Shown piece by piece: positions 13,982-32,355 of a stretch of 51,224 nt of DNA (position 1 is the first letter of the stretch; each line of letters starts with the position of its first letter). The stretch is from assembly GCA_947626895.1 (NCBI GenBank), contig CANQTY010000005.1, forward strand, positions 1-51,224. Reading direction: 5' to 3'. The notes under the pieces are model-generated. The model made no database searches. It was given only the letters and a program-made list of their open reading frames with translations, and was not told where the DNA came from. The translations under genes and the position numbers were made by a program. The stretch is from an uncultured Bacilli bacterium. GTDB taxonomy: Bacteria; Bacillota_I; Bacilli_A; RFN20; CAG-449.

Positions 13982-15226
13982 TTAGAAGAAAGAAAGTTTC
14001 ATTTCACTTGCTTCATCAATACTTACAAAATCGCTTAATGAAGAATCAACATAGCAATGAATTCCATCTTCATCATCCATATAAATTGTTTTTACATTAA
14101 ATAAATTTGATAGAGTTTTACCCTCCTCGATAGAACACATCATTAAAGCTGTAGATAATGCATCACAACTAGCGCCATCTAGGTTAGAATTACTAAAAAC
14201 ACTCACTGAGCGATGATAAGATTGGTTTTGTAAATTATTTCCCACATTTACGCCCGTTGGGTATCCTGTCATGGGATTAATAATATGATGATATCGAATC
14301 CCATCACTTGTTAAATAATAGTTTTGATAATCTCCAGAAGTAGAAAAAGAAAATTTTCCTTGATAAGCAAAATGTAAAAATTCATCTTCCTTTTGTCTTA
14401 AAGGATATAAAGGATTGCAAATGGATATATTCCAAGTATCAAAATAAGAATCACCATAAGAAGTTAAAGAAGATTGTCCTAAAGAAAATAAAGAATGTTC
14501 ATCATCCATTATTTCACTTAGAATATCATTTACTCTACCTTTTGCAATTCCTCCAAAAGTGATACTGATAGTTTTATTTTCAATCTGACTAAATTTAACG
14601 CTTTTATTGATATCATCAAAAGTAAATATTTCTTTTATTTCCTCAATAGAGGGAGTATTATTTAATGCTTTATTAATTTCTTCTTCACTAGGGGTAATAT
14701 CTATTGTTCTTCCTTTATATTGACTAATATAAGAATCCCATAAAGAAGATAATTCACCAATACAAAAATTAAATTTACCTTCTGTTTTCAGCGTTAAATC
14801 ATAAGCAATTTTTAATAAATCATATGTTTCTTTTTCTAATGAGATAAATTCTTCATCCCCATAATGATTATTTAAATATGCGACATTATGCAATAAAGAA
14901 CCATCTGCTTTTTTAAAATAGGTATGTCGATCAAAACACATCGATAAATAGACGATTTCTTTTTTACATTCATTGAGTTTTGTTTCTAAGGAAGTCTTAT
15001 AACTTTCATGAAGATAGTTATAAGAAATAATTTCTGCTTGATCAAAAGCAAAATAAATGGGTAATTCCTTTTCATTACCATTTTCATCTATTTGAAAAGG
15101 AGTATATTCATTAAAAAAAACATTCATTGGTGTCATAAGGACATTTGTCCATGACATTTCTTTATCTTCAATATTGCATGAAGTTAATAAAGCTAGACAA
15201 AGAAAACCTAATAAATGCTTTTTCAT
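13982..15226 (-). CDS. apbE: FAD:protein FMN transferase, lipoprotein
   Basis: The protein has 414 residues. A lipoprotein signal ends in LTSC, so Cys17 is lipidated and the enzyme faces outside the membrane. ApbE hallmarks are GGIAKGRVND, HHIINPMTGYPTG and GASCDALSTALMM, the last holding the metal-binding Asp/Thr pair. ApbE transfers FMN from FAD to a Thr in (S/T)GAT-type motifs of RnfG, RnfD and FMN-binding domains. The rnf cluster at 27-32 kb provides obvious clients. It is longer than many ApbE proteins (about 330-350), with extra N-terminal sequence after the anchor. GGAGG lies five bases before the ATG. Confidence 0.93.
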   Translation of the reverse strand: MKKHLLGFLCLALLTSCNIEDKEMSWTNVLMTPMNVFFNEYTPFQIDENGNEKELPIYFAFDQAEIISYNYLHESYKTSLETKLNECKKEIVYLSMCFDRHTYFKKADGSLLHNVAYLNNHYGDEEFISLEKETYDLLKIAYDLTLKTEGKFNFCIGELSSLWDSYISQYKGRTIDITPSEEEINKALNNTPSIEEIKEIFTFDDINKSVKFSQIENKTISITFGGIAKGRVNDILSEIMDDEHSLFSLGQSSLTSYGDSYFDTWNISICNPLYPLRQKEDEFLHFAYQGKFSFSTSGDYQNYYLTSDGIRYHHIINPMTGYPTGVNVGNNLQNQSYHRSVSVFSNSNLDGASCDALSTALMMCSIEEGKTLSNLFNVKTIYMDDEDGIHCYVDSSLSDFVSIDEASEMKLSFF

Positions 15227-27034: not shown

Positions 27035-27364
27035 TTATTCGCTGACTTTTAAAGTTTCACCATTTGGTCCAGGTGTGCTATTTAAATAAGTCACGATTGT
27101 TTGAGCTTTATCTTGTTTAATCACTTTACACATACGTACTTTCGTGACCTTTCCTTCGATAATAGCATCTACTAAACCTGCACAACCAGGATATCCACAG
27201 GCACCGCAATTGGCACCAGGCATATTTTTCATAACTTCCGCTTTACGTGGATCTTCTTGCACGGATAAAAATTTATCTGCAAGAGCAAGAACAACACCTA
27301 AAATAATGGCGATAACAACGATTACCGCGGCAGCAATTAACATTGATTGATAGTTAAATTCCAT
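27035..27364 (-). CDS. rnfB: RnfB-like protein, truncated to anchor and one [4Fe-4S] motif
   Basis: A protein of 109 residues. The N-terminal span is about 7-30. Next comes the RnfB Fe-S domain: NCGACGYPGCAGL with Cys 53/56/61 and a fourth Cys at 79. Full RnfB proteins are about 180-330 residues and continue with a ferredoxin-like domain bearing two more [4Fe-4S] clusters. Here the frame ends at 27035 and a terminator follows within 65 bases, so the shortness is real and not a frameshift seen in this window. It starts directly after the stop of the 63-residue gene, behind AAGGAGG. Confidence 0.87.
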   Translation of the reverse strand: MEFNYQSMLIAAAVIVVIAIILGVVLALADKFLSVQEDPRKAEVMKNMPGANCGACGYPGCAGLVDAIIEGKVTKVRMCKVIKQDKAQTIVTYLNSTPGPNGETLKVSE

Positions 27365-27557: not shown

Positions 27558-28181
27558 TTAGAAAATTCCTACAAGTCCATTCATAAAGATCATGGCCATA
27601 ATTGCAGTACAAAGTAAACCGACGGCAACGCCAGAAAATCCTTTAGGAATTGGTGCATTTTGTAATCGTTCTCTTAAAACAGAGAAGATGTAAAGAGCTA
27701 AGAAGAAACCTAATGCTGTACCAATAGAATAAACAAGCATGAAGATGAAATCACCAAATTCACCACCGATAGAATTAGTAAGGGATAATCCACCTAAAAG
27801 GGCATCCATATCGACGACTTGTTTACAGATATATAAGACAACACAGTTCGTGGTAATTAAAGGAAGATAGATTCCTAATGATTTATATAAAGATGGTGAG
27901 AACTTTTTAATAAACATTTCCACGAATTGCACGACACTTGCGACGACTAAAATAAAGCAAAGTGTCGACATATATTCAATATTCCATAAGACAAGGAGCT
28001 TATTTAATAAATAGCAGATAATCGAGGCTAAAACCGCGACGAAAGTAAGAGCAAATCCCATACCAACAGCGCTTTTCTTCGATTTAGAAACACCTAAATA
28101 AGAACATACCCCATAAGGAAGGGAGAATACGACGTTACTTGTTAACATCGCAATCATGAGTAACTTGAATACTTCTAACAT
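27558..28181 (-). CDS. rnfA: Rnf complex subunit RnfA
   Basis: A 207-residue protein with about six spans, homologous to RnfE next to it. The intramembrane half-helices that carry the shared Fe-S site are marked by the Asn/Cys segments SLPYGVCSYLG near residue 20 and LITTNCVVLYICK near 108. RnfA and RnfE fold as inverted mirror subunits in the Rnf/NQR core. Assigned as RnfA by order (C-D-G-E-A-B). RnfE is separated by two bases. Confidence 0.92.
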   Translation of the reverse strand: MLEVFKLLMIAMLTSNVVFSLPYGVCSYLGVSKSKKSAVGMGFALTFVAVLASIICYLLNKLLVLWNIEYMSTLCFILVVASVVQFVEMFIKKFSPSLYKSLGIYLPLITTNCVVLYICKQVVDMDALLGGLSLTNSIGGEFGDFIFMLVYSIGTALGFFLALYIFSVLRERLQNAPIPKGFSGVAVGLLCTAIMAMIFMNGLVGIF

Positions 28182-28183
28182 AA

Positions 28184-28894
28184 TTATTTAACCTCCTTTA
28201 CTGGAGCGCCATTTTCGGCTTCTTTTTTTAAAGCAGCTTCTTTTTTAGCTTTTTCTTTTTTATGTTCATCCATCATCATACGGATACAATAGAAAACACC
28301 TAAGATTAAGCCAAACATCATAAAGGCACCAGAACTTTGGACAAAGATTGGCATCTTATATTCTGCAAATGGTAAGAAAGAGAATAATAATTCATTGTTG
28401 AATGGATTACGGATAGTAAATCCACCTGTTCCTAATAATTCTCTAAAGAAAGCTAAGATTAAACAAGAGATTAAAAATCCGATTCCTGTTCCAAGTCCAT
28501 CAAGCATTGAATCTACAACACCATTTTTACTAGCAAAAGCTTCCGCTCTTCCTAAAATGATGCAGTTAACTGTAATCATAGGAATAAATAATCCTAAACT
28601 ACTTGCTAAATCTGGAGTAAATGCCTTCATCAAGTATTCAACCATCGTAACAAAGCTAGCGATGATGACGATAAAGACGGGAATACGAACTTCATTTGGT
28701 ACCCATTTACGAATTAAAGAGATAAAGGTATTCGTAAAGAATAAAACCATAATGACAGCGACACCCATACCTAAAGCGTTATTTAATGAGGTGGTAATTC
28801 CTAAGACTGGACACATACCAAGGAGATTTACTAAAATGGCATTTTCACGAATCAAAGGATTTACAAACGTAGCTAGTTTTCCATCTTTTTTCAT
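28184..28894 (-). CDS. rnfE: Rnf complex subunit RnfE
   Basis: A 236-residue protein with about six spans and a charged 25-residue cytoplasmic tail (KKEKAKKEAALKKEAENG), longer than usual. The paired motifs NLLGMCPVLGITTSL and ITVNCIILGRAEAFA match RnfE. It is a channel subunit of the ferredoxin:NAD+ oxidoreductase. Its ATG overlaps the rnfG stop (TAATG) behind GGAGGTAATG. Confidence 0.93.
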   Translation of the reverse strand: MKKDGKLATFVNPLIRENAILVNLLGMCPVLGITTSLNNALGMGVAVIMVLFFTNTFISLIRKWVPNEVRIPVFIVIIASFVTMVEYLMKAFTPDLASSLGLFIPMITVNCIILGRAEAFASKNGVVDSMLDGLGTGIGFLISCLILAFFRELLGTGGFTIRNPFNNELLFSFLPFAEYKMPIFVQSSGAFMMFGLILGVFYCIRMMMDEHKKEKAKKEAALKKEAENGAPVKEVK

Positions 28895-29436
28895 TAGGCA
28901 TTACCTCCTAAAGTTTTGTAATGAGCTAAAGCTTGATCAACAGCTTTTTTCATTGCATTCTTTGTTTTAGTCGCTCCTGCATAAGCTGGGAATTCATTTT
29001 GTCCTGTATAAGTTTTTAATTCACTTAAAGTTGTTTCATTGTTTTCATATTTACTAGCATAACCAGAATTGTTATTGGTAATCATTGAATATGAATCAAT
29101 TTTTCCACTTGTCTTATCAATTCCAAGCATAAAGGAGACTGTTCCCGATTGGGGATTATCTGTAGTTAAAGAATAGACATAAGAAGAAGCACTTCCATGA
29201 GGAACTTCCACTAGACCAGTGATATTTGTATAACCATTGCTAGCAAAGTCATAAGTGACTTCTTTAATGCCATCTACTTGAACACCATCATAAAGAACTT
29301 GATATGCTTCATTTCTTTTGACCATTTCATTATGTTCAATGACGGGTTGACAAACGTTATAGACCGCGGCAAGCGCTGTTCCAAAAAAGAGACATACACC
29401 ACCTAAAAATAAAGGAAGTTTTATAAATTTATTCAT
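28894..29436 (-). CDS. rnfG: Rnf complex subunit RnfG (FMN-binding)
   Basis: The protein has 180 residues. One N-terminal span (about 5-27) is followed by an extracytoplasmic FMN_bind domain. The flavinylation motif near the end reads AYAGATKTKN (AGAT at 153-156, acceptor Thr156); the usual motif is (S/T)GAT, so the first residue differs. I start at the ATG at 29436, where GGAGG precedes it and the rnfD stop lies one base before. The frame upstream to 29454 overlaps rnfD. ApbE at 14-15 kb is the expected modifying enzyme. Confidence 0.92.
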   Translation of the reverse strand: MNKFIKLPLFLGGVCLFFGTALAAVYNVCQPVIEHNEMVKRNEAYQVLYDGVQVDGIKEVTYDFASNGYTNITGLVEVPHGSASSYVYSLTTDNPQSGTVSFMLGIDKTSGKIDSYSMITNNNSGYASKYENNETTLSELKTYTGQNEFPAYAGATKTKNAMKKAVDQALAHYKTLGGNA

Positions 29437-29437
29437 T

Positions 29438-31027
29438 TTATTTACCCTCCACATAATCTAGAACACGATTGATACCATACATATAGCCTGAAACCGTGTA
29501 GGTTGCTCCACATTTTATAGTATCTGGTACTTTACTAAATTCGGTATAATTTGTAGAACTATAATATTGTAAATCTAATGCACGGAATGTAGCAAATGGG
29601 ATAGGATCTTCAAATTTAACATATGTTTCACTTAATTCTTTTAAATGACTACCTTTATCTTGTCGATAACCTAAGTATTCACTCATTTCTTCAACAACAC
29701 CTAAGAAGTAATCACCATATCCTCCACCTGCACCTGTATCATTGACTGTTACACTAACCACTGTTTTAGCTGAGGCATTTACTTCTACATCCATATCAAT
29801 TTGAACATAGGGAGCATCTTTTTCGGTTTGATTAGCAAAAGGAGTAACTTTTACATTGTAAACAGATGCACTCTTTTCTGTTACCACTGAATTATAAGTA
29901 GGTGTAGCGCTTGATACTTTTCCCATATAAGCACAGCTTACTAAGATTAATAAAGTACAAATTCCTCCCGTGATAGAGGCTTTAAGAGCTAATTTATCCG
30001 TAGTTCTTCCTTTAAAGCACATATCGATTAAAGGAGTAATCATATTTGCAAATAAGATAGAATAGGCAACACCTTCTGCGCCAGATCCCATGAAACGAAT
30101 GAGCATCGTGATAAATCCTGCAAAAACACCATAGATAATTTTACCTAATGGAGATGTAGGACTTGTCACAGGATCAGTTAAGCAGAAGACCGCACCAAAT
30201 AGGATACCTCCTGTTAACATTTGGGCTAAGATAAATGTTCCAAAATCACTTACACCATTTACTGCGCCAACTAACATGGCACTTAATAAACAAGTAAGTA
30301 AATAAGAACAAGAAATTCTCCAGTCGATGACGTGTAATACGACAAAAGCAATTCCAATGACGATAATTAATAAGGAGAATGTTTCACCTAAAGTTCCTCG
30401 ATAATTTCCGATAAATAAATCAAAAAGTGAAACATTACTAAAGGATGTTAAAGTATTCCATCCTTCGCCTGCCCAATTGCTTAAAACGGTAGGACCTGTA
30501 AAAACCTCAAATTCTTGTATACCTTCGATATGGCCATAATTAAATGAACTACCAAAGCAGATTTGAGCAAAGATTCTTCCAAAAATCGCGGGATTGAAGA
30601 TATTATATCCAAATCCTCCAAAGAGCATTTTACAAATGGCTACCGCAGCAATCGTGGTAAACACAAGTTGCCACCAAGCCATTCCAACAGGAAGAAGTAA
30701 AGCAAGAATAATACCTGTGATATAACCAAAAGAATTGATTTCTTTCTTTAAAAGATATAAGCAGATATTTCCTACTTTTTCCTTATTTTCTTTATATTCT
30801 TTTAAGGTTTTTGGTAAGAAAAATAAGATTTCTGTAACCATCGCAGTTAAAACACAAATGACAACGTTCAAGATTGCAAATAAGCCATCTTCAACATTTC
30901 CTGCGATAAAGTAATAAATAATAGCCGCTAACCAAACAAGAGCTAAACCACCTAAAAGCATTAACATGATTTTAAGTGTGCTATTTTTTGATCTTACGTA
31001 AGGAGCGGGATTTACTGCTAAATTCAT
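29438..31027 (-). CDS. rnfD: Rnf complex subunit RnfD with C-terminal FMN-binding-like extension
   Basis: The protein has 529 residues, against about 310-350 for usual RnfD. Residues 1-370 are a normal membrane RnfD: NPAIFGR at 145, TDPVTSPTSPLGK at 284-296, and a candidate flavin Thr in FTGPT (Thr180; usual (S/T)GAT). After the last span (about 351-368) a 155-residue extension follows, with VVSVTVND near 423 and PDTIKCGATYTVSGY at 501-515, the layout of an RnfG-type FMN_bind domain with CGAT (506-509). It overlaps rnfC by ATGA. Confidence 0.9.
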   Translation of the reverse strand: MNLAVNPAPYVRSKNSTLKIMLMLLGGLALVWLAAIIYYFIAGNVEDGLFAILNVVICVLTAMVTEILFFLPKTLKEYKENKEKVGNICLYLLKKEINSFGYITGIILALLLPVGMAWWQLVFTTIAAVAICKMLFGGFGYNIFNPAIFGRIFAQICFGSSFNYGHIEGIQEFEVFTGPTVLSNWAGEGWNTLTSFSNVSLFDLFIGNYRGTLGETFSLLIIVIGIAFVVLHVIDWRISCSYLLTCLLSAMLVGAVNGVSDFGTFILAQMLTGGILFGAVFCLTDPVTSPTSPLGKIIYGVFAGFITMLIRFMGSGAEGVAYSILFANMITPLIDMCFKGRTTDKLALKASITGGICTLLILVSCAYMGKVSSATPTYNSVVTEKSASVYNVKVTPFANQTEKDAPYVQIDMDVEVNASAKTVVSVTVNDTGAGGGYGDYFLGVVEEMSEYLGYRQDKGSHLKELSETYVKFEDPIPFATFRALDLQYYSSTNYTEFSKVPDTIKCGATYTVSGYMYGINRVLDYVEGK

Positions 31028-32355
31028 TTTTTACCCTCCTTTTTTTGTGCCTCTAATTGTTTTAATTTGATGGATGTCATTAATTTGGCTTTTTTGACAA
31101 AGTCATTAACATCAATCTTACTTGGGCAGATATAAGAACATAAACCACATCCTATACAATGCCATGGAGTAAGTGCCATCATTCGATCACTATCTTTTGC
31201 TTGATAAGCATCTTTAATTTCCACTGGTTGTAAACCTACTGGGCAATGATCCGTACAGGCTCCACATCGTAAGCAAGGAAGTGTATTTAAAGTCATTCTA
31301 GGTAAAATCGTAAGTCCATTATAATAAGGTAATATAACGGCTTTATCATCCATAACTCCTCTTGAACACATTGGTCCACCAAAAGATACAGATACACTTT
31401 CACCAACATAACCACCTAAAAATTCAACAATATCAACTGCTCTTGTATAAATAGGAACATCGACATTTGATGGATTAGAAACTCCACTACCAGAAACGGT
31501 AATCACTTTATGAGTTTCCACTTCTCCATTCATTGCTCTAGCTAGCAAAATCGCGGTAGTCACATTATTGACAATGGTATGAGCTTCCGCAGGTAATTTA
31601 TCATACGTTCTTTTTAATACTGCTTTTACGATGAAACGTTCCCATCCCGCAGGATAGACGTTTTTCACATGAGCTACATGGATAGAGGGATTAATCGATT
31701 CAATATCCTTATAGCATTCATCTAAATCGGGATATCCTTTTTTATAGACGATATAAGCATCTTTTGCTCCCGCGGCTTTCATCATAAATTCAATACCATG
31801 AATTAATTCATCTTTATGAAGTAGCATCGCTTCATGGTCGGTAGTTAAGAATGGTTCACATTCAACACCATTAATTAAAATGGTATCGATATTCTTTTCT
31901 AAAGCACCTAAATATTTAATATAGGTTGGGAATCCTGCACCACCTTGACCACTTAAGCCAGATTCCTTCATGCGTTCAACAATTTGTTCTGCTGAAGCTT
32001 TCAAGTCAAGAACCTCTAAAGGTTCTACTTTTTGATGTTTCTTATCATTTTCAATCGCAAAGTGTCTTACATTACGACCTAGACCTGCATGAAACATCGT
32101 TTCTTCTCTAACGATTTTTCCAGAGACTGGGGCAAAAACAGGTGTTCCTTTTTCACACGTTCCAATCACTTGACCTTCTTTTACTAGATCACCGATTGAA
32201 ACATTGAGCTGAATCGGTTTAGAAGATCCTGGATCTACCACTGGAACAAAGACTTCATTGGGTTCAAATTTTAAAACTTCTTTACCCATGGAAAGTTTCT
32301 TTGTGTCTTGGATACGATAGAGATGTTTGTGTCCTAACGTAGTAAAAATAGACAT
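31024..32355 (-). CDS. rnfC: Rnf complex subunit RnfC
   Basis: A 443-residue peripheral subunit that takes electrons to or from NAD(H). The NADH/FMN site is SGLSGQGGAGFPTYIK near residue 132. Two ferredoxin-type [4Fe-4S] motifs near the C-terminus are CLRCGACTDHCP and CIGCGLCSYICP. It is close to the usual length (about 440). It is first in the operon, behind GAAGGAG and an extended -10 promoter. Rnf couples ferredoxin:NAD+ electron transfer to sodium or proton pumping. Confidence 0.96.
   Translation of the reverse strand: MSIFTTLGHKHLYRIQDTKKLSMGKEVLKFEPNEVFVPVVDPGSSKPIQLNVSIGDLVKEGQVIGTCEKGTPVFAPVSGKIVREETMFHAGLGRNVRHFAIENDKKHQKVEPLEVLDLKASAEQIVERMKESGLSGQGGAGFPTYIKYLGALEKNIDTILINGVECEPFLTTDHEAMLLHKDELIHGIEFMMKAAGAKDAYIVYKKGYPDLDECYKDIESINPSIHVAHVKNVYPAGWERFIVKAVLKRTYDKLPAEAHTIVNNVTTAILLARAMNGEVETHKVITVSGSGVSNPSNVDVPIYTRAVDIVEFLGGYVGESVSVSFGGPMCSRGVMDDKAVILPYYNGLTILPRMTLNTLPCLRCGACTDHCPVGLQPVEIKDAYQAKDSDRMMALTPWHCIGCGLCSYICPSKIDVNDFVKKAKLMTSIKLKQLEAQKKEGKK

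Follow-up and report, generated by a model that had tools for sequence, protein, structure and literature searches.

A recurrent fusion of RnfD to FMN_bind-type domains in a part of Bacilli

In current models of Rnf pumping, RnfG swings so that its flavin alternates between RnfA/E and RnfD, and this movement is gated by the ion-binding state. In the known complex, the RnfG flavin shuttles between the cluster of RnfA/E and the flavin of RnfD (PMC11889175). In RnfG and NqrC (PF04205; TIGR01947), one membrane helix leads into an outside domain whose C-terminal part has an [S/T]GAT-type site and a helix. The known structures of RnfD/NqrB (PF03116) stop after helix ten, as do characterised RnfD proteins; in A. 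woodii, RnfD has ten helices, and its N- and C-terminal loops are located within cytosolic RnfC (PMC11889175). Multi-flavinylated RnfG and other multi-FMN_bind proteins carry extra covalent flavins on the outer side of Rnf, and their extra domains sit on RnfG or on separate proteins (PMC8238504). In NQR/RNF-like two-subunit systems (PF03116 + PF00175), a cytosolic NAD-binding domain is fused to the C-terminus of the NqrB/RnfD membrane domain, and the FMN site of the core has been lost (PMC11334425).

Here we analyzed a stretch of 51,224 nucleotides from an uncultured Bacilli bacterium, referred to in its entirety as the window. Its RnfD resembles the multi-flavinylated RnfG proteins in a predicted additional covalent flavin on the outer side of Rnf, but here the extra domain is on RnfD; unlike the two-subunit systems, its C-terminal fusion is extracytosolic by prediction and the core flavin site, Thr180, is kept. 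The open-licence literature searched (main texts) describes multi-flavin RnfG and makes no mention of an RnfD–FMN_bind fusion, and the word "fused" is absent from the main text of PMC8238504. Database architecture lists may already contain the fusion.

The rnf operon of the window and its extended RnfD

The rnf operon occupies the minus strand, from 32355 down to 27035, in the order rnfC, rnfD, rnfG, rnfE, rnfA, rnfB. Together with an apbE gene, the genes are as follows:

31024–32355, minus strand: rnfC (TIGR01945, 273 bits)
29438–31027, minus strand: rnfD with the C-terminal fusion (open frame and Pfam)
28894–29454, minus strand: rnfG, 186 aa, predicted FMN on Thr162 (FMN_bind, 30.4 bits)
28184–28894, minus strand: rnfE, with the NC motif at the RnfA/E cluster (Pfam and motif)
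27558–28181, minus strand: rnfA, with the NC motif at the RnfA/E cluster (Pfam and motif)
27035–27364, minus strand: rnfB, short form of 109 aa (membrane anchor and one FeS cluster, PF04060; no ferredoxin domain)
13982–15226, minus strand: apbE (FMN transferase; lipoprotein signal LALLTSC), 12 kb away from the rnf genes

ApbE is encoded twice in the window genome, with one copy inside the window. The short RnfB is also found in related loci (L034–L113), where proteins of 81–133 aa comprise a membrane anchor and one FeS cluster domain and lack a ferredoxin domain. The counterpart of this short form in A. woodii RnfB is the B8 part (residues 30–100). Ferredoxin would therefore need to meet the cluster of such an RnfB directly.

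The rnfD gene is a single open frame of 529 codons, and its stop codon overlaps the start of rnfG. An earlier note, made from the sequence alone, had estimated that RnfD is about 180 residues longer than usual, and this held: the core ends at about residue 342, leaving ~187 extra residues. The protein is laid out as follows:

30002–31027, minus strand: RnfD core, residues 1–342, ten predicted membrane helices (PF03116, 236 bits; RnfD/NqrB fold match, Z 30–33)
29915–29992, minus strand: eleventh membrane helix, residues 346–371 (AlphaFold helix 346–371; hydropathy peaks 346–374)
29441–29899, minus strand: predicted extracytosolic domain, very probably of FMN_bind type, residues 377–529 (homologues, clade HMM and fold)

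The Pfam profile NQR2_RnfD_RnfE (PF03116) spans residues 5–341 with 236.1 bits (cut-off 27.7); TIGR01946 matches at 171.7 bits, under its curated 207, and PF00175 (NAD-binding) found no match in this protein. Compared with solved structures, the RnfD model aligned over residues 11–349 with A. vinelandii RnfD (Z 33.4) and A. woodii RnfD (Z 31.9), and the solved RnfD/NqrB structures contain no counterpart to residues 350–529. Thus, the window protein shares with RnfD/NqrB the core, its ten helices, the conserved Thr180 site and the operon position, and differs in the addition of helix eleven and an outside domain.

The AlphaFold model of the whole protein (37 sequences, pLDDT 72) shows the ten core helices, the eleventh helix, and then a beta sheet with strands at residues 377–386, 389–397, 410–417 and 422–430. 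Helix 510–526 starts directly after Gly507-Ala508-Thr509, so that the tail terminates in CGATYT and a helix. A Foldseek search with this full model returned the RnfD core and noise only. The landmarks that the earlier note had picked out were located, VVSVTVND at residues 422–429, where the model has a strand, and PDTIKCGATYTVSGY close to the C-terminus, with the Thr509 codon at 29501–29503.

Since A. woodii RnfD has ten helices and both termini in the cytosol, one extra helix puts the tail outside. The loop charges agree with this placement, with Lys/Arg-rich loops at residues 71–98 and 339–345 and an acidic loop at 162–213. From helix count and charge, we infer that the tail lies outside the membrane, on the same side as the Thr180 loop.

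The extension is conserved, at 74% identity over its full length in a second MAG (L034) and at ~30% identity in two further clades of the window family. Because the fusion occurs in many independent assemblies, including those of type strains, we rejected a frameshift or assembly artefact as its origin; the extension is not an artefact.

Identity of the tail and its predicted flavin site

The tail escaped direct detection. The earlier note had proposed a search of the tail with PF04205 (FMN_bind), which failed, giving no Pfam match at E-values up to 10; an NCBIfam scan of the tail yielded no useful match, and TIGR01947 (RnfG) did not match it. When the profile of the small window family was set against that of clear FMN_bind tails, the match was weak (26%, E 7e-4; reversed controls 0.2–0.3%). 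Given this weak match and the lack of direct Pfam or NCBIfam hits, we used homologues and fold as a bridge.

Homologous RnfD proteins made the relationship visible. In eight of the nine tested, PF04205 scored above its curated cut-off (22 bits) on a chain that also bears PF03116. The tail scores were 28.6 bits in L036, a member of the window's own family, 31.8 in L042, 26.5 in L048, 54.6 in L079, 36.7 in L063, 89.5 over two stretches in L082, 43.8 in L088 and 45.7 in L100, and L068 fell narrowly under the cut-off with 21.2 bits. The tail of L005, from the window family of genomes, also scored above it (24.4 bits). The window tail is homologous to the tails of L036 (E 9e-20) and L040 (E 8e-20). 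Furthermore, a clade HMM of FMN_bind domains from other clades, with the whole window family excluded, scored the window tail at 17.6 bits, and the best of 2000 shuffles reached 10.7.

Structural comparison pointed moderately in the same direction. A tail-only AlphaFold model was made from eight window-family sequences, with no templates and no clear FMN_bind sequence among them. Chains of NqrC, the subunit of Na+-NQR that carries FMN, accounted for 7 of its top 11 structural neighbours at moderate Z-scores of 4.2–5.2, the best aligning over 96 residues at 3.2 Å in a second-look aligner. The structural prediction that the earlier note had called for is favourable in that NqrC is the best neighbour, and unfavourable in that Z is just 5.2 and Foldseek alone found no significant match to the tail model. 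An insertion of ~45 residues carried by the window-family tails is of low confidence in the model.

These results relate the tail to FMN_bind domains, and we conclude that it is very probably a divergent FMN_bind-type domain. Like RnfG/NqrC, it follows a lone membrane helix, is predicted to lie outside and has a C-terminal [S/T]GAT-type site with a helix; the rnfG gene is adjacent, and the nearest solved fold, at moderate Z, is NqrC. It differs in being covalently part of RnfD and in the insertion. BLAST detected no similarity between the window tail and the adjacent RnfG, and the two stand apart in the domain tree described below. Thus, of the claim that RnfD is fused to a second RnfG-type FMN_bind domain, the FMN_bind-type character stood, on the homologue scores, the HMM score against shuffles and a model that most resembles NqrC, and the description as a second RnfG did not.

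Two putative flavin sites are present in the window RnfD:

30488–30496, minus strand: GPT, residues 178–180; Thr180 is the predicted covalent FMN site of the core (aligned region of A. woodii RnfD T156; PMC11889175)
29501–29509, minus strand: GAT, residues 507–509; Thr509 is the predicted FMN attachment site of the tail (GATYT invariant in the family)

Thr180 is nearly invariant across the 37 RnfD sequences, and the neighbouring Ala is replaced by Pro in the window. In the tail, GATYT is invariant in all eight window-family sequences at ~30% overall identity and aligns, at the same position, with the textbook DAVTGATYT of L042. Measured against the usual flavinylation motif, Dxx[S/T]GAT, the window's DTIKCGAT is off consensus, with Asp one residue further away and Cys in place of Ser/Thr; DLYCGAT in the tail of L034 restores the Asp. 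The window RnfG motif, FPAYAGAT, also breaks the Asp rule, yet this RnfG is standard. As the earlier note had observed, this RnfG ends like the RnfD tail, its AGAT lying near the C-terminus (Thr162 of 186). Degenerate GAT sites occur in several relatives, as in the first tail domain of L021 and L023. Taken together, covalent FMN on the window tail is predicted, and we consider it probable.

Distribution of the fusion, loss of rnfG and a proposed role of the tail

A scan of genome contigs yielded 80 related Rnf loci, in which RnfD tail lengths were bimodal: 38 extend at least 138 aa beyond the core, 42 extend less than 80 aa, and none falls between. Fused RnfD proteins are encoded by the type strains Longicatena caecimuris DSM 29481 (L048) and Amedibacillus dolichus DSM 3991 (L068). 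Within the window's order, RnfD frames of at least 500 aa occur in 29 of the 85 genomes that bear RnfD, and in a wider sample frames of at least 469 aa were found in ~32 of 111 genomes. Some tails contain two domains (L067, L075, L080, L082, L085, L088, L091 and L097), and one 730-aa frame (G388) contains three. The RnfD–FMN_bind fusion is therefore a recurrent architecture in this part of Bacilli, with one to three domains.

Three operon arrangements were distinguished. In arrangement 1, an unfused RnfD is followed by a separate two-domain FMN_bind protein (347–406 aa) and then RnfG (e.g., L057, L104, L107 and L112). In arrangement 2, fused RnfD and RnfG are both present (the window, L034, L036, L048, L068, L088 and L091). 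In arrangement 3, found at 12 loci (L056, L061, L063, L067, L072, L078, L079, L082, L083, L089, L090 and L092), RnfD is fused and the rnfD–rnfE gap is at most 175 nt, which leaves no room for rnfG there. L097 was rejected as an rnfG-less locus, as the genome search showed a 202-aa RnfG-like frame.

For arrangement 3, whole-genome FMN_bind searches in six frames found the RnfD tail as the sole match in G058, G060, G062, G064, G066 and G068, and two fused RnfD frames as the only matches in G063. The tail is likewise the only FMN_bind domain in G225 (98% complete), which has a 474-aa RnfD. Some relatives with fused RnfD have thus lost rnfG. The arrangement 3 loci retain the NC motifs of RnfA and RnfE, the ferredoxin motifs of RnfC and, in those with an identified RnfB, the RnfB cluster motif, and the complex therefore seems functional. 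As the sole FMN_bind domain in several relatives, the tail must serve Rnf itself there, at the RnfG step.

We consider it fairly probable that ApbE attaches an FMN to the fused domain, which then shuttles electrons while tethered to RnfD, either beside RnfG or in its place; FMN binding and function are predicted from these data. The added helix 11 would hold an extracytosolic FMN_bind-type domain on an otherwise normal RnfD, and ApbE would attach FMN to Thr509. The tethered domain could then serve as an additional mobile carrier of electrons at the outer face of Rnf, next to RnfG, relaying electrons between the iron–sulfur cluster of RnfA/E and the FMN on Thr180 of the core. By analogy with the known complex, a flavin domain anchored on RnfD through helix 11 would be well placed for RnfG-like shuttling. 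In relatives without rnfG, the same kind of tail would perform the whole RnfG step. The window keeps rnfG, so the basic electron path there does not depend on the tail.

The retention of rnfG could also mean that the extra flavin serves another route, with the flavinylated domain passing Rnf electrons to an extracellular acceptor outside the internal Rnf path. The same role has been proposed for multi-flavinylated RnfG proteins (PMC8238504), some tails bear two or three domains, and many other FMN_bind proteins are encoded in some fused relatives (13 matches in G287 and 23 in G314). However, in the window genome, which is 91.6% complete, RnfG is the sole PF04205 match besides the undetected tail, leaving no FMN_bind-type acceptor partner visible, and in the relatives whose only FMN_bind domain is the tail, that domain must serve Rnf. 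We regard this alternative as unlikely.

Still less probable is that the tail keeps an FMN_bind-like fold as a flavin-free structural or RnfG-docking module. The window motif (KCGAT, with no Ser/Thr at −3), the large family insertion, the failure of Pfam to detect the window copy and the degenerate sites in relatives are all compatible with such a module, whereas the invariance of GATYT in so divergent a family would be hard to explain without an attachment site, and the RnfG of the same genome is off the Asp rule as well. An unrelated extracytosolic domain with a coincidental GAT is the reading we disfavour most and think highly improbable; the lack of direct Pfam, NCBIfam or significant Foldseek matches speaks for it, but homologous tails match Pfam, the HMM score beats all shuffles, NqrC is the best structural neighbour, and GATYT coincides in position with textbook sites.

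We think it somewhat more likely than not that Rnf takes a distinct form in small-genome Bacilli and Mycoplasmatota. In this form, the mobile FMN shuttle would be tethered to RnfD, and RnfG would have become redundant and been lost in many lineages. What remains would be a pump of five genes (RnfCDEAB) whose RnfB is short and has one cluster; the window would represent a stage with both shuttles. A flavin domain tied by a helix to RnfD, combined with a losable RnfG, constitutes a natural experiment for shuttle models and limits the travel of the shuttle. An RnfG-less Rnf offers a simpler complex for structural work, and the presence of the fusion in cultured type strains (Longicatena caecimuris and Amedibacillus dolichus) makes these proposals testable. 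Annotation is also corrected, in that many gut Bacilli and Mycoplasmatota with the domain on their RnfD seem to lack RnfG.

Origins and variants of the tails

In a domain tree of 106 domains and 109 columns, with weak deep forks, the window tail fell in a supported clade of window-family tails only (100/99), apart from the RnfG proteins of the same genomes. A recent duplication of the adjacent rnfG was rejected on the BLAST result and this tree, with the few columns and weak deep forks noted. RnfD tails formed at least three groups: Mycoplasmatota-type tails grouped with the second domain of the separate FMN_bind protein of arrangement 1, and Erysipelotrichales tails with the second domain of RnfG proteins that have two. 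The tree does not support one common origin for all fused tails, as at least three label changes are required by its starred branches. It is likely, on this tree with its weak deep forks, that several fusions occurred or that domains were exchanged within the operon.

In L054, L064, L073 and L099, RnfG has two FMN_bind domains, of which the second clusters with the Erysipelotrichales RnfD tails; the placement of these second domains suggests possible domain exchange between RnfG and RnfD. A separate two-domain FMN_bind protein between rnfD and rnfG was found at L057, L084, L096, L103, L104, L106, L107, L108, L110 and L112. It occurs in Izemoplasmatales/Acholeplasmatales-type operons and looks like an unfused counterpart of some RnfD tails.

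Several relatives depart from the common layout of the tail. At L021, the RnfD core is separated from two FMN_bind-like domains by an Ig-like domain (PF16403), and the linker thus varies across lineages. In a sister genus (L039–L041), ~150 extra residues separate helix 11 from the FMN_bind-type domain, and the neighbouring RnfG-matching protein is enlarged to 334–523 aa. At L011 (G038), the RnfD frame reaches 883–996 aa, and its very long tail, for which there was no Pfam match, contains repeats in which several GAT-like sites lie.
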